A stretch of DNA of 64,000 bases, taken from Paracoccus lichenicola. GTDB taxonomy: Bacteria; Pseudomonadota; Alphaproteobacteria; Rhodobacterales; Rhodobacteraceae. How positions within the stretch are numbered: position 1 is the first letter of the stretch; every line of letters begins with the position of its first letter. Positions 27,461 to 45,575 of this stretch are shown in pieces. Location: NCBI RefSeq assembly GCF_009708075.1, contig NZ_WMBT01000002.1:434001-498000 (forward strand). The letters are read 5' to 3'. The notes beneath the pieces are model-generated. The model did no database searches, was not told where the DNA came from, and worked only from the letters and a program-made list of their open reading frames with translations. Position numbers and translations under genes: made by a program.

Positions 27461-27732
27461 GCACCCCTGTCCCGTCCGATCCATTTTGCTATCTGCATGT
27501 CCCGCCCGGACGGATACCGAGATGGACACCTTCCGCAAAAGGCGGTCTATCGGATCAATCCAGCGCCCGTGCTTCGAGTTGGTTCGTCCGGCCGGTCCGC
27601 GGATCAGCGATGCGGTCGAGACCGGCCTTGGCCTGACCGGCCGCGGCGGAGTCCTGCAGTTTACCCGGCAGAAGACGGGCGAGCCGGCATCTGTGCCTTG
27701 GACGTGCCCTCTGCCCACCTGTGCAGCGCGGA
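27461..27732. other. Trailer-side flank of the CRISPR array, no gene seen
   Basis: About 270 bp between the glycosyltransferase-like gene and the last, degenerate repeat. Short open frames run into the array but resemble nothing I recognise. No tRNA fragment or terminal inverted repeat is visible. Confidence 0.4.
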
Positions 27733-30700
27733 TGATCATCCCCGCGGGTGCGGGGGAATAGTTACAGCAGTGCCAAAGGCCGGGTTTGCAAGGCGGTTCA
27801 TCCCTGCGGGTGCGGGGAACAGGATTGCCACTCGGCATGGCTGTCCTTGATCGTCGGTTCACCCCCGCGGGTGCGGGGAACAGGGCAACTCGCACGGGTG
27901 CGTGCATCTGGGATGCGGTTCACCCCCGCGGGTGCGGGGAACAGAACTGACCGTGGCGACCGCCGTGGAAATAATGCGGTTCACCCCGCGGGTGCGGGGA
28001 ACAGAATTACCCACGCTAGATGAACTGCGTCAACTGCGGTTCACCCCCGCGGGTGCGGGGAACAGTAATAATCATTAACCCTCTTTTTCTCGACAGCCGG
28101 TTCACCCCCGCGGGTGCGGGGAACAGTTGATCAAACGGCTCTCCATCCCGGCTGGCGCCGGTTCACCCCCGCGGGTGCGGGGAACAGACCGAAATGTTCC
28201 GTGCTGCGTTTGGTCAATACGGTTCACCCCCGCGGGTGCGGGGAACAGCCAACCTTGCCGCTTCCATTCAGGACATCGACCGGTTCATCCCCGCGGGTGC
28301 GGGGAACAGTGCCTCCAGGGTCATCGCCAGACGGATGATAGCGGTTCATCCCCGCGGGTGCGGGGAACAGCCCCACAAGGCGCAACCCGTCCGCCTCGGG
28401 ATCGGTTCATCCCCGCGGGTGCGGGGAACAGGGGTCGATCTTGACCCCCACCGCATCCACGCGCGGTTCATCCCCGCGGGTGCGGGGAACAGGACGGGCG
28501 GGTGGGAAGCCCGCCATACCACATCGGTTCATCCCCGCGGGTGCGGGGAACAGGCCCACAAGCGCCGTGACCCGATAGCGATAGCCGGTTCATCCCCGCG
28601 GGTGCGGGGAACAGACGCGCAGGCCCGCGTCAAGCTCTTTCGTCTTCGGTTCATCCCCGCGGGTGCGGGGAACAGATGCGGTCAGGACGGGCGGCGTTGA
28701 AGCCGCGCGGTTCATCCCCGCGGGTGCGGGGAACAGTTATGGTCGCAACCCGGGGGTCTGACCTATGGCGGTTCATCCCCGCGGGTGCGGGGAACAGGTG
28801 CCCATGGCCGACCTGAACCCCCATCACCGCGGTTCATCCCCGCGGGTGCGAGGAACAGTTGCACGCGTAAAAGGCGAAAAATTCATTTACCGGTTCATCC
28901 CCGCGGGTGCGGGGAACAGACCTGCCGAGATGATGACCGAGCCGGGCGTGACGGTTCATCCCCGTGGGTGCGGGGAACAGATGGCCTGCCCCGCCTGGAA
29001 CGCCGGTTCGGCCGGTTCATCCCCGCGGGTGCGGGGAACAGTGCGTGTGCAGCCACAGGCCCAGGTCGTCCATCGGTTCATCCCCGCGGGTGCGGGGAAC
29101 AGCCATTCGCCTTGGCCTTTCTGCGGGCCTGCCGCGGTTCATCCCCGCGGGTGCGGGGAACAGCGCGCCGCCGCCCTTCGGCAGTGCATGGCAGACGGTT
29201 CATCCCCGCGGGTGCGGGGAACAGACCTCCTCCTGCTCGGCCATGACGGCCCTGATCGGTTCATCCCCGCGGGTGCGGGGAACAGAAGCGCCCGCATCGC
29301 GGTGAGCGTGAACTGTTCGGTTCATCCCCGCGGGTGCGGGGAACAGGACTATCTGATCGCCACCGCTTCCAATGAAGCCGGTTCATCCCCGCGGGTGCGG
29401 GGAACAGCTTACGCGTTCATCTTTGCTTTCCTGTGCGATCGGTTCATCCCCGCGGGTGCGGGGAACAGAGCGACTCGCCGATCTCGCTGATCACCTTGGC
29501 CGGTTCATCCCCGCGGGTGCGGGGAACAGGCTAACATGACCGTCCTCTACCGTCTGACCGTCGGTTCATCCCCGCGGGTGCGGGGAACAGCTGACCAGAT
29601 CGAACCGCAGGTCCGACTCAGACGGTTCATCCCCGCGGGTGCGGGGAACAGATCCTGGAAATCACGCGGGCCGATGCGCAAGCCGGTTCATCCCCGCGGG
29701 TGCGGGGAACAGTCGTAGCGGGTGCCGTCTGCCCGCCATTGTGCCGGTTCATCCCCGCGGGTGCGGGGAACAGTTTCCATTCCTCCACAAAGGCAGCTTC
29801 GATGCCGGTTCATCCCCGCGGGTGCGGGGAACAGGCGAGATACCCGCCCGCGCCGTCGCTTGCCACCGGTTCATCCCCGCGGGTGCGGGGAACAGCGGTC
29901 GTGCCGGCCGTTGAACGAAAACACGAACGGTTCATCCCCGCGGGTGCGGGGAACAGCAGGTCAGGGACCATGGCGGGCGCGCCGTCTGCGGTTCATCCCC
30001 GCGGGTGCGGGGAACAGGGCATGATCGTCGTCATGCTCGGCCGTCCAGCCGGTTCATCCCCGCGGGTGCGGGGAACAGATCCACTCGGCGACCTGGGGAA
30101 TGAACGACAGCGGTTCATCCCCGCGGGTGCGGGGAACAGAACGCCTCGGCAGACATTCCGCGCGGGACTGCCGGTTCATCCCCGCGGGTGCGGGGAACAG
30201 ACCGCCCGCCTGCCCCATCCATCAGGGGATAGCGGTTCATCCCCGCGGGTGCGGGGAACAGGAAGGCCAGAACGTCGGCAAGCTGCCGATCACCGGTTCA
30301 TCCCCGCGGGTGCGGGGAACAGTATTCCGAGCGGAACGCGATGGATGGGGCCAGCGGTTCATCCCCGCGGGTGCGGGGAACAGATTGAAGAAGGCCGGAC
30401 GTTGGCGCGTCCGGCCGGTTCATCCCCGCGGGTGCGGGGAACAGAACCGGCACCTGGGTCGCAGGCGCGCCCTCACCGGTTCATCCCCGCGGGTGCGGGG
30501 AACAGACACGAAATGAATTGCCCGTTTTCAACGAATGCGGTTCATCCCCGCGGGTGCGGGGAACAGATACCACATGGAATAGGTGTTGGCCCCGACGTCG
30601 GTTCATCCCCGCGGGTGCGGGGAACAGCCACATGCGGCCCCATTGCACGGTGATCGCGCCGGTTCATCCCCGCGGGTGCGGGGAACAGCCAATATCGTCT

Positions 30701-33700
30701 CGATCTATTCCACGCCATACCGGTTCATCCCCGCGGGTGCGGGGAACAGATGAAATCTTGCCACTCAACGTTAGGCGTTTTCGGTTCATCCCCGCGGGTG
30801 CGGGGAACAGTTGTATCGAATTCCGAATTCGACTTTAGGAGCCGGTTCATCCCCGCGGGTGCGGGGAACAGTGCATCAGCCGTTCCATGTTCATGGCCGC
30901 TTTCGGTTCATCCCCGCGGGTGCGGGGAACAGTGGTCCGGGGGCGTCCCCCGTTCCTCACTCAGCGGTTCATCCCCGCGGGTGCGGGGAACAGGTTCAGG
31001 CCGTGGTGCTGGTGTCCGTGTACGCCGGTTCATCCCCGCGGGTGCGGGGAACAGGTCTTGATGCGCTTGGCGTCAGACACTTTTCGCGGTTCATCCCCGC
31101 GGGTGCGGGGAACAGAGGATTTGATCAGCACCCCGCCGCGCATCAAGCGGTTCATCCCCGCGGGTGCGGGGAACAGTCGATATTGGCAAGGGAGACGGTG
31201 ATACCGTTCGGTTCATCCCCGCGGGTGCGGGGAACAGAAGGGCGATCACGGCGATGGTGAAGGCCACTGAGGTTCATCCCCGCGGGTGCGGGGAACAGGG
31301 CCCCCGTTAGTAAGCGCGGCGCCCAGGCCGCGGTTCATCCCCGCGGGTGCGGGGAACAGGGGCGGCGCGGGGGGCGGTCATTGTGCCTCCGCGGTTCATC
31401 CCCGCGGGTGCGGGGAACAGGTGCTGCAACCTGTAGATTAGCGGCGTTAACTCGGTTCATCCCCGCGGGTGCGGGGAACAGGACGAGATGGGCGGCCGCA
31501 AGAACCGCGTCGGCGGTTCATCCCCGCGGGTGCGGGGAACAGTGAGCGAGGCTGAACTGGATCAAGCGGGAGTGCGGTTCATCCCCGCGGGTGCGGGGAA
31601 CAGGGCACCACCTGAGAGGTTCGCAATGGCTCTGCCGGTTCATCCCCGCGGGTGCGGGGAACAGTGGCCTTTTCGCTTCAATGTGTTTTTCAAAGGCGGT
31701 TCATCCCCGCGGGTGCGGGGAACAGCCTCGATGCGCTGCGGAACAACCCGCTGCGGCCGGTTCATCCCCGCGGGTGCGGGGAACAGGCTCGCGAAGCTTA
31801 GCGAAGGCAGCGGTTTTCCGGTTCATCCCCGCGGGTGCGGGGAACAGGTAACGATCAAGAAACATTTCACGCATACGGCCAGTTCATCCCCGCGGGTGCG
31901 GGGAACAGCGTCAGATCGTGCCCATTCGCGCGTCCACCATCGGTTCATCCCCGCGGGTGCGGGGAACAGTTGCGGTATTCCCTGTCGCTGGGCGGGTCGA
32001 ACGGTTCATCCCCGCGGGTGCGGGGAACAGTTGACCCACTGGACCACTTCGTAGATGTCCCCCGGTTCATCCCCGCGGGTGCGGGGAACAGGGTATAGAC
32101 GGTGATGGTGTTCATCAGATGCGCGGTTCATCCCCGCGGGTGCGGGGAACAGGAGGTGGAAGCGAAGCTGGCCCGCTCGAACATCGGTTCATCCCCGCGG
32201 GTGCGGGGAACAGTCAGGCTCCGTGACGGACGAACAGGTGACGCGCGGTTCATCCCCGCGGGTGCGGGGAACAGCTGCGCGGCTCGGGATCGACGGTTCT
32301 GGACGACGGTTCATCCCCGCGGGTGCGGGGAACAGCCGGGCTTGTCCGAGTCATGTCCTGCGCGCATCGGTTCATCCCCGCGGGTGCGGGGAACAGCCGC
32401 AAAGCGAGGGCTGTATTGCGTAATTCTTCGGTTCATCCCCGCGGGTGCGGGGAACAGGAGGGAACGGCGTGCGGCACACGGCCAGGATACGGTTCATCCC
32501 CGCGGGTGCGGGGAACAGCATCGCAAACCCCTGCGGACGGTCCTCTGCGCCGGTTCATCCCCGCGGGTGCGGGGAACAGGTCCGGCCTGGACAGTTTCAC
32601 AGGGGCCGCGTCGGTTCATCCCCGCGGGTGCGGGGAACAGACTAGGTGCCATTGCACTACGAATATGGCTGACGGTTCATCCCCGCGGGTGCGGGGAACA
32701 GATCCGATCCGGTCACGGGGGCATGATGAGGCGCGGTTCATCCCCGCGGGTGCGGGGAACAGGAGGCGGTCGTTCAGTATCAGATGCTATAAAACGGTTC
32801 ATCCCCGCGGGTGCGGGGAACAGTTGTCCGTCATGAAGTATTCTGCCGACACGATCGGTTCATCCCCGCGGGTGCGGGGAACAGCCCATCAATGGTGATC
32901 CCCACGTCCTGCACCGCGGTTCATCCCCGCGGGTGCGGGGAACAGGCCCGAGTGGCACCGGCGCCGATGAATGATGGCGGTTCATCCCCGCGGGTGCGGG
33001 GAACAGGCACCCGTTCAGCGTGCCAGCGGTTTCCACGGCGGTTCATCCCCGCGGGTGCGGGGAACAGGACCGCGCCCTGATGCACGAATCACTCAAGGCC
33101 GGTTCATCCCCGCGGGTGCGGGGAACAGAAGGCGCTGTGGCTGTGGGGGCGTCTCAAGGACGGTTCATCCCCGCGGGTGCGGGGAACAGGGGGCCGTCCT
33201 ATTGGAATGACGCCTCGGTGGCGGTTCATCCCCGCGGGTGCGGGGAACAGTCCTTTGTATCCTCATCCGGGTTTTTCGGACGCGGTTCATCCCCGCGGGT
33301 GCGGGGAACAGGCGCGGGGGGTTCATGCCAGCAGATGCGCAAGCGGTTCATCCCCGCGGGTGCGGGGAACAGGACGGCAAGCCCAAGCACGGCTGGCAGG
33401 CCCGCGGTTCATCCCCGCGGGTGCGGGGAACAGAGCCTATATTCCTGCGCCGCTTCCTCATCCGACGGTTCATCCCCGCGGGTGCGGGGAACAGTAAGAA
33501 GCGCGTGAGAAAAGCAATCCGGGAGGCGGTTCATCCCCGCGGGTGCGGGGAACAGTCCCTTGAAGTGATGCCCCGCGTGACGGTCAACGGTTCATCCCCG
33601 CGGGTGCGGGGAACAGGTCATTCTCCTTGAAGCGCCGCCCAGGATGCCCGGTTCATCCCCGCGGGTGCGGGGAACAGATATCCCCGTCATGCACACGGGC

Positions 33701-36301
33701 AACCTTGCGCGGTTCATCCCCGCGGGTGCGGGGAACAGACGGTATGCTCTGCCCATCGAATAGCAGACGCCGGTTCATCCCCGCGGGTGCGGGGAACAGT
33801 CGTTAGTCTGCACGAGGGCGAGGCCATCACGCGGTTCATCCCCGCGGGTGCGGGGAACAGCCGGTTCAGGTTGTCCCGCACCCACGCCTCGGCGGTTCAT
33901 CCCCGCGGGTGCGGGGAACAGTGGGGCGTTGTCGTCAAGCTGCCCATTGACGCCGGTTCATCCCCGCGGGTGCGGGGAACAGGTGTAGGCCGGACGCTGC
34001 ACCCCGGCGCGGGACGGTTCATCCCCGCGGGTGCGGGGAACAGATTGGGAGTTACGCCGTAGCGTGGCCCTGCCCCGGTTCATCCCCGCGGGTGCGGGGA
34101 ACAGCTGCTCAATTCCTCGACCTGCTTTTCATACACCGGTTCATCCCCGCGGGTGCGGGGAACAGGTCACATACGGATACGGGGCCGTTTCCGTCGCCGG
34201 TTCATCCCCGCGGGTGCGGGGAACAGTTCTCGGTGTCGGTCTGGTAGCGGTCTGCCAGCGGTTCATCCCCGCGGGTGCGGGGAACAGCGGTTCATCTCGC
34301 CTTGCGAAATGACGCCCTGCGGTTCATCCCCGCGGGTGCGGGGAACAGCAGCGATGCACCGACCTACCAGATCGGCCACCCGGTTCATCCCCGCGGGTGC
34401 GGGGAACAGTCGCTGCTGTCTTCGGAATAACCCTGATTTTCCGGTTCATCCCCGCGGGTGCGGGGAACAGCCCAATTCCCGCAGCCGCTCAAGGCTCATC
34501 GCCGGTTCATCCCCGCGGGTGCGGGGAACAGTTTGTATTGACGTGGACAAATGTCCATGACACCGGTTCATCCCCGCGGGTGCGGGGAACAGGGGACGGG
34601 CACGGCCAAGCTGGTCCTGGTCGCCGGTTCATCCCCGCGGGTGCGGGGAACAGGAGGCTGACGCCCTCGCCGCAATGCAACATCGCGGTTCATCCCCGCG
34701 GGTGCGGGGAACAGGCCAATATCGACATGGCCAGGAAAACTGCTGCCGGTTCATCCCCGCGGGTGCGGGGAACAGCTCACGCGGACGGCAAGAAACGTGC
34801 GGCCCTGCGGTTCATCCCCGCGGGTGCGGGGAACAGTCGGTCATCCCGATGGCCTCGCGCAGCTGCGCCGGTTCATCCCCGCGGGTGCGGGGAACAGCAT
34901 TTGCATGCCTGCTTCAGCTGGCGGCGGACCGGTTCATCCCCGCGGGTGCGGGGAACAGTCGCGCAGGGTCAGGTCGCTGCGCAGCTTGGCCGGTTCATCC
35001 CCGCGGGTGCGGGGAACAGATCGGTTCGCCCGCAGGTCGGTCGTGTGTGGACGGTTCATCCCCGCGGGTGCGGGGAACAGGTAACCCCTGCGCTTCAATT
35101 CAGCGACCAAGGCGGTTCATCCCCGCGGGTGCGGGGAACAGTCGTGGCCGGTCCTGGAAAGCGCCTCGACCTGCGGTTCATCCCCGCGGGTGCGGGGAAC
35201 AGTCTGAAACGCGGCCAGTAAGGGTTTCTATCGACGGTTCATCCCCGCGGGTGCGGGGAACAGTCGGCTTGCCGACATAGATACGCGCATTGACGCGGTT
35301 CATCCCCGCGGGTGCGGGGAACAGCAACTGGCAAACAGAGGAACCCTCATGTCCAGCGGTTCATCCCCGCGGGTGCGGGGAACAGTAACGTCTCGCCTCC
35401 AGAACGTCAGTTTCCAGCGGTTCATCCCCGCGGGTGCGGGGAACAGGGCATTGGCGCGGTCAGGCTGTCCGCAGGTGTCGGTTCATCCCCGCGGGTGCGG
35501 GGAACAGGCCATCGCGGGCCGCTACGTCCGCAACACCGGCGGTTCATCCCCGCGGGTGCGGGGAACAGGAAAAATCTGCGAATTGGAAGTCCATCGGTGA
35601 CGGTTCATCCCCGCGGGTGCGGGGAACAGTCAGCCACCAGATTGCGGCTCTGCGTCTCCATCGGTTCATCCCCGCGGGTGCGGGGAACAGGGAAGATGCG
35701 GGACAGCCATCCCATGATCAGGCGGTTCATCCCCGCGGGTGCGGGGAACAGGTTGTCCAAGCCATCGAGGACGGCAAGTCCATCGGTTCATCCCCGCGGG
35801 TGCGGGGAACAGGCTTTGACCATCTGAACGATGGACTAGGCTACCGGTTCATCCCCGCGGGTGCGGGGAACAGAGCCGGGCAAGACGGACTACCTGAACG
35901 CCCGGCGGTTCATCCCCGCGGGTGCGGGGAACAGTCCTCACCGAAGCTGGCCATATCTAACGTCTGCGGTTCATCCCCGCGGGTGCGGGGAACAGGCCGC
36001 GCGGGAGGAGGGCGCGCGGATGCCTATGCGGTTCATCCCCGCGGGTGCGGGGAACAGGTTATAGACCAGCGGGGGACCGGCAGTCAGCCCGGTTCATCCC
36101 CGCGGGTGCGGGGAACAGTTTTGTCTATGCCGGAAATGCAGCGTCGGCAGCGGTTCATCCCCGCGGGTGCGGGGAACAGTGCGCCGACCGGAACAAGGGC
36201 CTGAAACCCGTCGGTTCATCCCCGCGGGTGCGGGGAACAGCGAATGAAGCCTTGGAAGAAGGTGAAAAACGTCGGTTCATCCCCGCGGGTGCGGGGAACA
36301 G
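27733..36301 (-). CRISPR. Type I-E CRISPR array, about 141 repeats and 140 spacers
   Basis: A 29-bp repeat (on the + strand starting CGGTTCATCC, core CCCCGCGGGTGCGGGG, ending GAACAG) recurs with 61-bp period; spacers are mostly 32 bp, with a few of 31-33. By tracking the phase I count 135 repeats from 28098 to 36273 plus six at the low end. The complement (CTGTTCCCCGC...GATGAACCG) is the standard I-E orientation, so transcription is on the minus strand and the leader is at 36302, next to cas2. The low-coordinate end is the trailer: its last repeat (27733-27762) is degenerate, and the next eight carry CATCCCT or CACCCC variants. Internal point variants include repeats near 28830, 28950, 31271 and 31880. 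crRNAs are cut by Cas6e from the 6-bp-stem hairpin. Confidence 0.99.
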
Positions 36302-38284: not shown

Positions 38285-41993
<3,709 letters not shown>

Positions 41994-42013
41994 TAGACAT
42001 ACTCCATGAAGGA

Positions 42014-42047
42014 CAAAAGAAAAGGCCCGCGCCAAAGCACGGACCTT
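42014..42047 (-). terminator. Intrinsic terminator directly upstream of cse1
   Basis: Minus strand: 11-bp stem AAGGTCCGTGC (42047-42037) with GCGCGGGCCTT (42032-42022), two G-U pairs, TTTG loop, then TTCTTTTG. The U-tract ends 20 bp before the cse1 TTG. It would end any transcript coming from the cas3 side before the Cascade genes, either as an attenuator or as the end of a small RNA. Confidence 0.75.
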
Positions 42048-42094
42048 GCCCTCATCAGGAGAACGGCATAAGCTGTTCCTGTCCGGATGAGGGC
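42048..42094 (-). promoter_or_regulatory. Hairpin abutting the cse1 terminator (possible attenuator partner)
   Basis: Inverted arms GATGAGGGC (42086-42094 on +) and GCCCTCATC (42048-42056) with inner pairing (GGAAC/GTTCTCC). It touches the terminator stem without a gap. Tandem leader hairpins of this kind are typical of attenuators or of a structured small RNA with its own terminator. Confidence 0.5.
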
Positions 42095-42170
42095 TTATTC
42101 AGGTATTTTCAGCACTGGATTTGCCTCACTCCTTTGCTGCGCCAACAGCGGGTTGATGTTCGGGCCTACC

Positions 42171-42197
42171 AGCCTCGGGATTTGCAGTCCCGAGGCT
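42171..42197. promoter_or_regulatory. Perfect 10-bp dyad in the cas3-cse1 gap
   Basis: AGCCTCGGGA (42171-42180) / TCCCGAGGCT (42188-42197), 7-nt loop. It could be a weak cas3 terminator, an operator, or part of a structured RNA. No T-run follows on the minus strand; CTCTTTC follows on the + strand. Confidence 0.45.
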
Positions 42198-42253
42198 CTT
42201 TCAATCTGCTATAAGGGTTGGCGCCCTGTCAAGAGCCATCTTTCTGTAGTCAC

Positions 42254-42276
42254 TTATCCCCACCCTGCGGGGAACG
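42254..42276 (-). repeat. Solitary degenerate CRISPR repeat between cas3 and cse1
   Basis: Minus strand GTTCCCCGCA-GGGT-GGGGAT matches the array repeat (GTTCCCCGCA-CCCGC-GGGGAT) in the first ten bases and in the right arm, in the same orientation as the array. The handle end (AAGTGA instead of GAACCG) has diverged. It is flanked by a 12-bp direct duplication GTGACTACAGAA (complements of 42287-42298 and 42242-42253); the first copy contains the cas3 stop codon. Confidence 0.6.
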
Positions 42277-42294
42277 TTCGAAGCCCTTCTGTAG

Positions 42295-44820
42295 TCACGG
42301 GCCATCCCCGTGCGAGGATCTTCCAAACAATAGCCCCAAATCCGTATCGTAGGCTAGCCCTTTGAAGATAGCGCTATCATCGCCCACGACACACAGCGTC
42401 ACCGAAGCCTTGCGCCAGTCCGGCCAGTCCTTGCGGAAACCGGCCAGTTCCGGACCCTCCTGATCCGGCAGATCCAGCCCGGCCAGCCTCTTGGCGCTGG
42501 CGGACACCTCGCTCAGCGCCTCGGCTTCGGCGGTGGCGTGGGCATCGGCCGGATCCGCGTCTCCCGACCAGAACCGCAGCCGACCGCCCTCGCGGCGCAG
42601 CAGCAGCAGGGTCCGCGTCGGCTGCCCCAGCCGGGTCGGGTATTCGGCATCGTCGGAACCGCCGCCGCCGTCGCGATAGCCTTCCTCGATCCGTATCGTC
42701 GCCTGGCGCGCGTGGCTGCTGCGGGCGTGGCCTTCGCCGATGGTTTCCAGTTCGGCACCCTCCAGCGCGGGGGGCACCGGGCGGGCGTCGGGACCATGTA
42801 CGGTCTCGATCAGGGCGCGCAGGTTGTCGGGCGCGCGGATGGCGCCCGTCTCGGTCAGAACCGCAGCGGTGCGCCATTGATCCGCCAGGGGATAGACCCA
42901 GGCCCCGCGATCAAGGACGCCGTGCAGCCAGCGGTCATCCGTGACCGTCTCGGGATCGGGCGCCACGACATGCAGCACCGGCCCCGGCACAGGTCGCAGG
43001 TTTGCCGGACGCAGATCCATGTGCCGCCACAGCCGCCCGGCCCGCTGGATCAGCGAGGCGATGGGGGCAAGGTCCGACACCATCACGTCGAAGTCGAGAT
43101 CGAGCGAGGATTCCAGCACCTGAGTCCCCACCAGCACCCGCCCCTCGCGGCCCGTGCCGTCGCGGCCGAAACGGGCCATCATCCCCGCCTCGACCCGCTT
43201 GCGGTCGGCCAGCGTGAAGCGCGCGTGCAGAAGATCGGCGTCAATGCCCCGTGCCCGAAGTGCGGCCACGGCGGCGATCGCATCGTCCACGGCATTGCGC
43301 ACCCAGACGCAGGCCGCGCCAGCGGCAGCATGGCGGGCCAGCAGGTCCAGCGCGGCATCCGCATCGGGCAGGCGGTTGACCGCGACATCGCCCTTGGTCA
43401 TTTCCGGCGGGTCGAAGCTGCGGACCGATGCGCCTGCGGGGATCGACAGGCTGGGATAGGCGGGATCGCGATCCTCGGCAAAGGGTTGCCCGGTCCCTTC
43501 GGCAAAGGCGCGCGACAGCCGCGCCCGCAGATCCAGCGGCAGCGTCGCCGTCAGCAGGATGGCCGAGCCGCCCTGCATCGCATGAAGCCGCAGCAGGGTG
43601 GCCAGTTCGTGGGCCATGTAAGGCTCGCCCAGTTCATGCGCTTCGTCCACGATCAGGATCTTGCGCGACAGGCCCCAGTTGCGCAGCGTGGCAAACCGCG
43701 TGGGCAGCACCGCCAGCAGCGCTTGGTCGATGGTGCCCACGCCCACATCCGCCAGCAATGCGCGCCGCCTGCTGGCCGCCAGCCAGTCGCCGCAGACCGG
43801 ATCGTCCGAACCGGGGGCCGTGTTGCGCACGTCCCGGAATTCGACCGACAGCCCCGCCCGGCCATGGGCCAGCGTCAGCGAGGGCACGTCTTGGAACAGG
43901 CCGCCGACGACCTTGCGCGCGCGGCGGAACATCGCGTCCGCCGTCGCCATGGTCGGCAGCGCGACATAAAGCCCCTGCCCCTTGCCCGCGCACAGCATCC
44001 GTTGCGCCAGGATGAAGGCGGCCTCGGACTTGCCGGCGCCGGTCTCGTCCTCGATGATCGCCAGCATCGGTCCGGGCGGCAGTTCTATGTCGCGCGCGGC
44101 CTTCTGCATGGGGCGCAGCCTGAAATCGAACAGCGGATCGGCCTTCGGAGAAGGCGGCAGCAAGCCGGCGGCGCGCAGGGCATCCGGTGCACGTTGTCGG
44201 GCATCGGCAAGGTATTCGGCCAGCGTCGGACCAGCGTTCCGCGGCGCGAACCATTCCGCGTTTGATCCGACCCAATCGGCAACCGTCGTGACCCCGGCCA
44301 GAAACCATGTCAGGGTCTTCGCCTCGCGCTGGCGCATCCCTTCCAGCGTGGCCCCCGGCCACAGATCGAGGCAGGCGCGCACGAAAGCCGTCGCATCCGC
44401 GCGCGCCTCGGCGCCGGCGCGGTCGCGCATCTGCCTCCAGTCATGGTCCATCGCTCTTGGCGGCCTGCCATGATGGCCGGCAGTGGCGGCCACGAGGGGG
44501 CGCAACGCATGAAAGCCGCCGCCCAGCCGATCTGCCAACAATCCCTCGATCTCGGGATCACGCAGCCAGGCTTCGGTCACTTCCCAGTGCCGTCTGTCCT
44601 GAACCGTGCCGTTCAAAAGCATGTCGCGGAACACGCGTCCGATCTTGCCCAGATCGTGCAACGCGATCAGCAGGCAGAACAGGTCGCGCCGAGGGTGATC
44701 GGCCAGCAGAACCTCGGCCACGGCCGCCACGTCCAGCATGTGATAGACTGCAGGATGCGCGGGCAGCCCCGGTTCGACAGGGCTTTTCCCCGGCCAGCGT
44801 TCGATCTGCGCAAGCTGCAT
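42295..44820 (-). CDS. cas3: CRISPR-associated nuclease/helicase Cas3 (type I-E)
   Basis: An 841-residue HD nuclease-helicase that degrades DNA bound by Cascade. HD domain: His22 and His27 (AHPAVYHMLD), the His55-Asp56 pair in LIALHDLGKIG, and further AATAGHHGRPP. Helicase: Walker A DETGAGKSEA with Lys264, DEAH box at 392-395 (VDEAHELGEPY), motif III LLTATLP, and motif VI QRAGRLWRH. The ATG at 44820 follows AGAGGA. It is separated from cse1 by about 300 bp of regulatory-looking sequence, whereas all other cas genes overlap. Confidence 0.96.
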   Translation of the reverse strand: MQLAQIERWPGKSPVEPGLPAHPAVYHMLDVAAVAEVLLADHPRRDLFCLLIALHDLGKIGRVFRDMLLNGTVQDRRHWEVTEAWLRDPEIEGLLADRLGGGFHALRPLVAATAGHHGRPPRAMDHDWRQMRDRAGAEARADATAFVRACLDLWPGATLEGMRQREAKTLTWFLAGVTTVADWVGSNAEWFAPRNAGPTLAEYLADARQRAPDALRAAGLLPPSPKADPLFDFRLRPMQKAARDIELPPGPMLAIIEDETGAGKSEAAFILAQRMLCAGKGQGLYVALPTMATADAMFRRARKVVGGLFQDVPSLTLAHGRAGLSVEFRDVRNTAPGSDDPVCGDWLAASRRRALLADVGVGTIDQALLAVLPTRFATLRNWGLSRKILIVDEAHELGEPYMAHELATLLRLHAMQGGSAILLTATLPLDLRARLSRAFAEGTGQPFAEDRDPAYPSLSIPAGASVRSFDPPEMTKGDVAVNRLPDADAALDLLARHAAAGAACVWVRNAVDDAIAAVAALRARGIDADLLHARFTLADRKRVEAGMMARFGRDGTGREGRVLVGTQVLESSLDLDFDVMVSDLAPIASLIQRAGRLWRHMDLRPANLRPVPGPVLHVVAPDPETVTDDRWLHGVLDRGAWVYPLADQWRTAAVLTETGAIRAPDNLRALIETVHGPDARPVPPALEGAELETIGEGHARSSHARQATIRIEEGYRDGGGGSDDAEYPTRLGQPTRTLLLLRREGGRLRFWSGDADPADAHATAEAEALSEVSASAKRLAGLDLPDQEGPELAGFRKDWPDWRKASVTLCVVGDDSAIFKGLAYDTDLGLLFGRSSHGDGP

Positions 44821-45149
44821 GACATTTGTTCCTCTGACCTTGCAGAGCTTGCAACAGACGATCCATGATGGGCAAGAACAGGCCGCGCGGTTGCCGATCT
44901 CTTGCCATGCAAGCCATAGGGGCGTCGTCGCCCGGGTCCACATGGCAATGGGCGATGGCGGCCGGACGCGATGCTGCTCTTTGATGACGCACCCCAGCAT
45001 GAAGCGATCACGCAGGCTCGGGGCATGGCTTGTGACGTGCCCATCGCGGGCCGTCGGCGTGAGCGGATGCCGGCGGCTCATCCCCAGGGCAGCATCAACA
45101 GCCTGCACGCCGATGGAAGGCGTTCGGCGGATACGCCCGGCACCCTGCA
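44821..45149. other. Upstream region of cas3, no gene seen
   Basis: About 330 bp with several overlapping open frames but no recognisable product. It probably contains the cas3 promoter and decayed island sequence continuing from the integrase remnant on its right. Confidence 0.4.
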
Positions 45150-45389
45150 TATCCAGATGGTTCCCCCGCTGTGTCAGCCAGGAGGCCGCGACCATGAACC
45201 GCTGGAAAACGGAAGCGCATGGGAGATGTCTGTCTGCTGGAATTGCCGCACTGTTCGTCCACGGATTGCGCAAGGCATGTGCCCACCGATCGGCGGAGGC
45301 TGGCGCAACTCTGCACGAGATCATGGTCGAGCGGGCATGAAACGCTGGCCGAAGTCAAGCGATACACCAAAAAGGTGCAGCTGCCCTGA
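45150..45389 (+). pseudogene. Tyrosine recombinase (phage-type integrase) C-terminal remnant
   Basis: In one frame the sequence reads SRWFPRCVSQEA, then VHGLRKACAHRSAEAGATLH, the HxLR active-site box of tyrosine recombinases. After EIM a one-base loss shifts frame; the next frame continues SSGHETLAEVKRYTKKVQLP and a stop, the GHxTLAEVxRYT box with the catalytic His and Tyr. The N-terminal two-thirds cannot be found. It is a decayed integrase about 110 bp from a tRNA-Glu 3' end, the usual int-att layout of an integrative island. Confidence 0.75.
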
Positions 45390-45500: not shown

Positions 45501-45575
45501 TGGCAGCCCGTAGGGGAGTCGAACCCCTCTTTTCAGGTTGAAAACCTGACGTCCTAACCGATAGACGAACGGGCC
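45501..45575 (-). tRNA. tRNA-Glu (anticodon TTC)
   Basis: 75 nt with encoded CCA. Acceptor GGCCCGT/ACGGGCT (one G-U pair); D region TCTATCGGTTAGGAC; anticodon stem-loop CAGGTTTTCAACCTG with anticodon TTC; T-arm GAGGGGTTCGACTCCCC. All arms pair. The 3' end faces the integrase remnant. Confidence 0.97.

Follow-up and report, generated by a model that had tools for sequence, protein, structure and literature searches.

The 64,000-nucleotide stretch of Paracoccus lichenicola DNA analyzed here (hereafter the window) carries a type I-E CRISPR-Cas locus, in which the gap between cas3 and cse1 holds a guide-like sequence between two degenerate CRISPR repeats, followed by a matching target. The cas genes and the CRISPR array all lie on the minus strand, with cas3 (45324–42295) followed by cse1 (from about 41993) and the remaining genes onward to the array. 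The cas3 gene is taken as the listed open reading frame (ORF; 42295–45324) with a provisional start, and the annotated cas3 occupies the same place in plasmid relatives. The protein of cse1 (casA; 40545–41993) matches PF09481, and its probable TTG start at 41993 is deduced from relatives; the names of the other cas genes are assigned from gene order and annotated plasmid relatives. The type I-E array (27732–36301) is built on the repeat CTGTTCCCCGCACCCGCGGGGATGAACCG, of which 128 exact copies occupy positions 28281–36301, and variants of this repeat extend from 27732.

Read 5′ to 3′ on the minus strand, the cas3–cse1 gap is arranged as a first degenerate repeat (psiR1), the guide (psiS), a second degenerate repeat (psiR2, ending in AAG), the target copy and the hexamer TTGACA. 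The psiR1 (42298–42325; ..ATCCTCGCACGGGGATGGCCCG) lies inside the last codons of cas3 and is the more degenerate of the two repeats; its handle-like end ATGGCCCG (42298–42305) has the form ATG..CCG, and the array handle is ATGAACCG. The psiR2 (42253–42275, minus-strand sequence GTTCCCCGCAGGGTGGGGATAAG) is in array orientation and ends in AAG at the place of the handle of the array repeat. The original prediction, made from the letters and ORFs of the window, had reported in this gap a degenerate CRISPR repeat, oriented like the array, that kept both hairpin arms and had a changed loop and handle; psiR2 agrees with this description, since it folds (−11.1 kcal/mol, with 16 of 200 shuffles folding equally well), has an altered loop and has lost its 5′ handle. 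That repeat had also been called solitary and its guide placed after it, both of which proved incorrect: psiR1 (−9.4 kcal/mol, with 34 of 200 shuffles equally good) is a second pseudo-repeat, and the actual guide lies between both repeats. The stretch from about 42245 downward was rejected as a guide, as psiR2 has no handle at that end and no third repeat was seen; this stretch is the PAM-flanked target (PAM, protospacer-adjacent motif). The layout departs from that of an ordinary array or a lone repeat in having two diverged repeats and a 22-nt guide instead of the 34 nt expected from the 61-nt period of the array. A CRISPR RNA (crRNA)-like guide next to one degenerate repeat or between two of them, within a cas locus, is a feature of CreTA systems that the window shares.

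The 22-nt guide psiS (TGACTACAGAAGGGCTTCGAAC, 42276–42297, minus strand) begins with the 3 nucleotides of the cas3 stop codon. The AAG at 42253–42255, which is both the end of psiR2 and a type I-E PAM, lies 5′ of the protospacer on the non-target strand, and the putative CreA target (42221–42252, minus strand) covers a −35 hexamer. Guide and target are identical at positions 1–11 and at 13 of 22 positions overall, with the pairing fading afterwards. The seed positions with which a published CreA works (1–5 and 7–11; PMC8501985) are thus all matched in the window. The previously noted 12-bp direct duplication that includes the cas3 stop is real (GTGACTACAGAA, at 42242–42253 and 42287–42298) and consists of the guide seed and the target seed, each with one flanking G. 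The putative promoter PcreT (42202–42232, minus strand) has its TTGACA at 42227–42232, 20 nt into the target; the PAM-flanked, seed-limited target is therefore situated at a putative toxin promoter, which is predicted from sequence and has a weak −10 element. With position 6 left free, the seed occurs at 3 further genomic sites, one of which (C54:4993) has an AAG and lies inside a 398-aa ORF; it was read as a chance match. This ORF may encode a Hint-like protein.

Between the target and cse1 lies a candidate CreT RNA on the minus strand, which includes (i) a 5′ hairpin (42172–42196) with a 10-bp stem that none of 300 shuffles equaled; (ii) a mini-ORF, GTG CTG AAA ATA CCT GAA TAA (42095–42115, encoding MLKIPE), which has a Shine-Dalgarno (SD)-like sequence 5′ of it and contains the rare codon ATA; (iii) a long 3′ hairpin (42048–42094) predicted by folding; and (iv) an intrinsic-terminator-like hairpin (42015–42047) with an 11-bp stem and a T-rich tail just before cse1. 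The predicted fold of the whole candidate RNA has an energy of −83.7 kcal/mol, compared with a shuffle mean of −61.4 kcal/mol (z = −5.3). A search of positions 41500–42800 against Rfam returned 5 matches, all under the gathering scores, and thus no known RNA family. The two strong hairpins at 42015–42094, the second of them terminator-like, lie 22–101 nt 5′ of the probable cse1 start and may form an attenuator of the cas operon.

The conservation of this anatomy in sister I-E loci was surveyed in cse1 relatives from 21 of 394 family genomes, at least 79 loci among the matches listed, 16 of 125 genus genomes and 40 plasmid records. Five of the 40 plasmid records, all with cse1, were examined. 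One of them duplicates L104, a locus whose coordinates are those of the P. aestuarii DSM 19484 plasmid and which falls into one genus group with the window. The 108 loci, window included, were reduced to 85 when loci sharing the same final 150 nt were merged; adding 4 plasmid loci and removing 2 array-like regions (L047 and L049) gave 87 regions. Excluded by hand were L001, which is the window again, 4 loci with a contig end near cse1 (L071, L076, L088 and L098) and 4 partial matches (L017, L019, L022 and L116). The scan required an 8-mer resembling the handle, two 11-nt copies 36–100 nt apart with at most 2 mismatches besides position 6, a PAM of AAG, ATG or AAA, and a psiR2 start, for which the strict threshold was a score of at least 8. 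These criteria had been widened after some of the gaps were viewed by eye and were therefore not blind; the controls were run under identical criteria. Two earlier and stricter scans had given 15 of 85 loci, chance and array matches included, and then 17 accepted loci.

At the strict threshold, the full anatomy was found in 24 of the 87 cas3–cse1 regions and in none of 1740 local shuffles, 75 cse1 coding stretches or 87 reverse strands. The absence of the mini-repeat from related loci, which the original prediction had named among the outcomes that would count against it, was thus not observed. A looser psiR2 threshold gave 25 of 87 real regions, 15 of 1740 shuffles, 2 of 87 reverse strands and 5 of 75 coding stretches; the 25th region, L058, has a weak psiR2 inside cas3 and was set aside as a chance match, as was L003 in one of the earlier scans. 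The PAM was AAG in 21 of the 24 loci, ATG in 2 and AAA in 1. Permitting any trinucleotide gave 66 locus-trinucleotide hits, among which AAG stood before the second copy in 21 and the runner-up in 3.

The seeds differ at nearly every locus (only L080 and L082 have the same one), and a guide fitted the target of another locus at 8 of 10 positions in only 2 of 552 pairs; the guides are thus private to their own targets. Positions 2–5, 7 and 11 matched in 24 of 24 loci, position 1 in 22, positions 8–10 in 17–21, positions 13 and 14 in 20 each, and positions 15–17 in 15–18. The match falls to 6 of 24 at position 6, which is the chance level, and to 9 of 24 at both position 12 and position 18. Positions 1–11 other than 6 were part of the scan selection; position 6 and those from 12 onward were unselected. 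The mismatches at positions 6, 12 and 18 are in line with the pairing expected of Cascade, and free positions 6 and 12 are a demonstrated property of CreA–Cascade pairing (PMC8501985). All of positions 1–5 and 7–11 matched in only 9 of the 24 loci, the window included.

Guide lengths, measured from the end of the handle to the GTTCCCC of psiR2, a scale on which ordinary array spacers are 34 nt, were 22 (8 loci), 23 (4), 28 (2), 33 (1), 34 (8) and 35 (1); every guide is thus within 1 base of 22, 28 or 34. The length class changed at least 10 times by parsimony on the cse1 tree (86 rows), so common descent alone fails to explain the lengths. Cas7 copy number in Cascade scales with the length of the guide, and multiples of six have been described for spacers (PMC6828817); the short guides therefore point to short-form Cascades. 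In the type I-B system of H. hispanica, repression with neither cleavage nor priming is obtained with spacers no longer than 24 bp (PMC10989794).

An insert separates the target from cse1 in 22 of the 24 loci, spanning 191–508 nt from the target start to the cse1 anchor codon, and 251–362 nt in 20 of these 22. Its recurring content is a TTGAC with a −10 element, a 5′ hairpin, a second hairpin, an SD sequence (consensus GGAGG across 13 aligned loci), a mini-ORF and a 3′ hairpin. The 5′ hairpin has an uninterrupted stem of 10–13 bp that was better than shuffles in 10 of the 22 loci, and two more reached p values of 0.03–0.04. Mini-ORFs were picked by eye and are listed for 17 of the 22 loci, those of L006, L042, L115 and L213 being read off the printed sequence; the ORFs of L054 and L099 are longer or ambiguous, and L027, L073 and L080 have no clear one. 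A TTGAC with a −10 matching at 3 or more of 6 positions lies near the target in 13 of the 17 loci with a listed mini-ORF.

These mini-ORFs comprise 3–6 sense codons and fall for the most part into two groups. One group follows the pattern NTG nnn AAA ATA CCy (the window, L005, L024, L039, L056 and L104, with L054 in a longer frame), and a second follows ATG GGT nnn ATA TAA (L035 and L115, plus looser relatives). Across the 17 mini-ORFs, ATA accounts for 10 of 65 sense codons, compared with 20 of 1907 surrounding trinucleotides. In the genome, ATA is used at 0.77 and ATC at 47.98 per 1000 codons in 212 ORFs selected for their GC content at each codon position, although this selection may in turn favor GC-ending codons; values from the longest ORFs (ATA 5.06 and ATC 27.99 per 1000) were discarded as apparently spoilt by false ORFs. 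Translation of very short ORFs that have a strong SD sequence and end in UAA can exhaust the tRNA that reads their last codon (PMC8708949). The sequence AAAATACC is common to 7 of the 24 creA loci (target–cse1 interval) and occurs in 1 of 65 others (last 350 nt). Outside the matched loci, L089, from a Sneathiellales metagenome-assembled genome, has a CreT-like hairpin and a mini-ORF, ATG ACC ATC AGG ATA TAA, 5′ of cse1, and the scan gave no guide–target pair there.

Taken together, the cas3–cse1 gap is quite probably a type I-E CreTA module, in which a CreA guide controls the CreT candidate. The guide–target half of the module is strongly supported; its repression and toxicity we infer from sequence features. 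The crRNA-like guide of the CreR or CreTA class that had originally been proposed is well supported as a class, on the anatomy, private matching, PAM and periodic mismatches; the details proposed for it were wrong, and CreTA fits better. In the module that we propose, a transcript running out of cas3 would be cut by Cas6e at psiR1 and psiR2, yielding a CreA RNA with an 8-nt 5′ handle, the 22-nt guide and a 3′ hairpin. As psiR1 encodes the last cas3 codons and the cas3 stop opens the guide, the cut at psiR1 would strip the mRNA of its stop. CreA would then load into Cascade, probably into a shortened complex containing fewer Cas7 subunits, and bind the AAG-flanked target that abuts psiR2. Since the pairing is mostly limited to the seed (1–11 in the window), we propose that this binding blocks the −35 element without Cas3 cleavage. 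The RNA silenced in this way would be structured, and its mini-ORF, which includes the rare codon AUA, would be translated into MLKIPE. If Cascade were lost or inhibited, the RNA would be made and growth slowed, most likely through tied-up tRNA-Ile(CAU) or ribosomes; a stalling peptide or an RNA-level effect may be an alternative mode of the CreT candidate. The cell would thus depend on its CRISPR system.

Several observations weigh against a CreTA module of this kind. At the promoter level, the −10 of the PcreT in the window is weak and uncertain (CAGATT at a spacing of 18 nt or TATAGC at 13 nt), a promoter scan of the gap gave no site scoring 9 of 12 or better, and the same scan gave no promoter-like site for creA. 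The hairpins of both psiR1 and psiR2 lie within the expectation of 200 shuffles, and the 5′ stem was no better than shuffles in 10 of the 22 insert loci, some of these stems being interrupted. Seed mismatches, 1 or 2 per locus at position 8, 9 or 10 and in two loci at position 1, occur in 15 of the 24 loci; the guides are thus not simply identical to haloarchaeal CreA, which would not tolerate them. ATA is absent from 7 of the 17 listed mini-ORFs, which were chosen by eye, and L027, L079 and L099 have ATG or ACA at the ATA position of their relatives; moreover, the mini-ORF of the window has a single AUA, whereas the haloarchaeal toxins have two rare codons in a row. The nearest cse1 relative, L023 (93%), is without the module, and an earlier version of the scan (target at most 75 nt away; PAM AAG, ATG, AGG or GAG) matched only array repeats (L120 and L141) in 24 of 30 more distant loci (L117–L146).

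The main competitor, which we consider unlikely, is that the guide is a CreR and not part of a CreTA: it would autoregulate the promoter of the cas operon, the RNA would be its 5′ leader, and the mini-ORF would encode a leader peptide or serve as an attenuator. CreR has been published for type I-E (PMC13131331; for type I in general, PMC12737573), and L026 and L211 lack a toxin-like insert and have the guide and a target at the promoter immediately 5′ of cse1, so the guide there can act only on that promoter. A TTGAC in the last 130 nt before cse1 is found in 3 of 17 mini-ORF loci, compared with 28 of 63 loci without creA, and the target promoter may thus be the cas promoter. However, this contrast drops to 2 of 17 versus 11 of 63 when a −10 is also required, which leaves the case for a shared promoter weak. 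The insert of 251–362 nt in 20 of the 22 loci usually has an SD sequence and a mini-ORF, and the AUA enrichment and the common AAAATACC would need a separate explanation under CreR. With toxin-like RNA between target and cse1, and with a terminator-like hairpin before cse1 in the window, CreTA is ranked first and CreR second.

Much less probable is a relic, that is, a decayed mini-array from a repeat–spacer duplication with no present function. L028, L061 and L214 look decayed by eye, and the presence of the module is scattered on a quick cse1 tree (86 rows), with 20 parsimony changes, 16 of them forced by well-supported branches; it is no more clustered than shuffled labels, and gains and losses are indistinguishable. 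Against this, the remainder diverges but the seed match, PAM and handle persist, and the tolerated mismatches are at Cascade-silent positions. A chance resemblance with an unrelated 12-bp duplication, to which the control matches at the looser threshold (5 of 75 coding stretches, 2 of 87 reverse strands) would point, is contradicted by the strict threshold, with 24 of 87 real regions and no match among 1740, 75 and 87 controls, and can be set aside.

A more specific form of the CreTA module is possible, and we offer it tentatively: a two-output addiction switch in which one promoter, repressed by a short Cascade, would give both an AUA-codon RNA toxin and a read-through Cascade operon, with the guide cut in whole Cas7 steps (22 or 28, not 34 nt). 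If so, Cas7 stoichiometry would set guide length such that binding occurs without cleavage by Cas3, and the target would derive from a duplicated repeat–spacer unit whose handle became a PAM.

CreTA has been published for types I-B (PMC8501985), I-F (PMC10097628) and I-E, the last in Citrobacter rodentium (PMC12055562), and CreR for I-B, I-E and V-A (Liu et al. 2023, as cited in PMC13131331 and PMC12737573). Comparison with these systems, by anatomy and not by sequence similarity, revealed the following. (i) The type I-B CreTA of Haloarcula hispanica and Halobacterium hubeiense (PMC8501985; Li et al. 2021 as cited there) likewise has one or more degenerate repeats beside the guide, two psiR in H. 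hubeiense, of which psiR1 is better at the handle and psiR2 at the 3′-handle part, seed pairing by a PAM at the toxin promoter, and a short rare-codon ORF (AUA/AGA) with a hairpin; its CreT sequesters tRNA-Ile(CAU) through two AUA codons (PMC8501985). The modules described here differ in being type I-E and mostly from Rhodobacterales, in their single AUA, in the seed mismatches at 15 of 24 loci, and in a target that abuts or closely follows psiR2, the PAM in the window being the 3′ end of psiR2 itself. (ii) The C. rodentium CreTA (PMC12055562) has the same subtype, the cas3–casA gap, a PAM-adjacent target near the toxin promoter and a toxin that needs translation; in contrast to the co-directional arrangement with 3–6-codon mini-ORFs seen here, its creA lies opposite a 96-bp ORF without rare codons. 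(iii) The Acinetobacter I-F CreTA (PMC10097628) is also located between cas3 and the first Cascade gene, with two psiR and a mini-ORF with an SD sequence, but its creA and creT are divergent, and its toxicity comes from RNA sequence and a start-codon hairpin, not from rare codons. (iv) CreR (Liu et al. 2023, as cited in PMC13131331 and PMC12737573) is similarly a crRNA-like guide with limited complementarity to a promoter of the cas locus, which fits L026 and L211; no toxin is attached to it, and in the window a structured RNA with a terminator-like hairpin separates the target from cse1.

In the literature covered (titles and abstract openings, with few subscription papers and without supplementary lists of predicted bacterial CreTA), no such modules were found in Paracoccus, Rhodobacter or Rhodobacterales; over the same partial scope, which did not include Liu et al. 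2023, no report of an AUA-type CreT in bacteria or of stepwise guide lengths was found. The stray repeat becomes part of a testable candidate addiction module, whose layout recurs with locus-specific guides and targets across type I-E loci, mostly in Rhodobacterales. The mini-ORFs suggest a bacterial toxin RNA built on an AUA codon, shown otherwise, in the cited papers, in haloarchaea only. Repression may be uncoupled from cleavage by naturally occurring short guides whose lengths step by 6 nt, and the guide–target–PAM rule finds such modules despite guides with almost no common sequence.

Some individual loci are of separate interest. In L115, psiR2 is an intact full-length repeat, after which come AAG and the target copy, an arrangement that resembles an early repeat–spacer duplication becoming guide and target. 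L212, on the Paracoccus versutus plasmid pTAV1, has two degenerate repeats 34 nt apart, about 120–205 nt 5′ of cse1, for which the scan gave no matching target. Two Rhodobacter capsulatus strains (L087 and L099) differ from each other, DSM 1710 having the module and SP108 a 91-nt gap with no match. In the window, the array is very long, and its distal end has a block of repeats with one common substitution and one repeat outside the 61-nt register. A tRNA-Glu gene (45501–45575) lies directly 5′ of cas3 on the same strand and may mark an integration point of the CRISPR locus.

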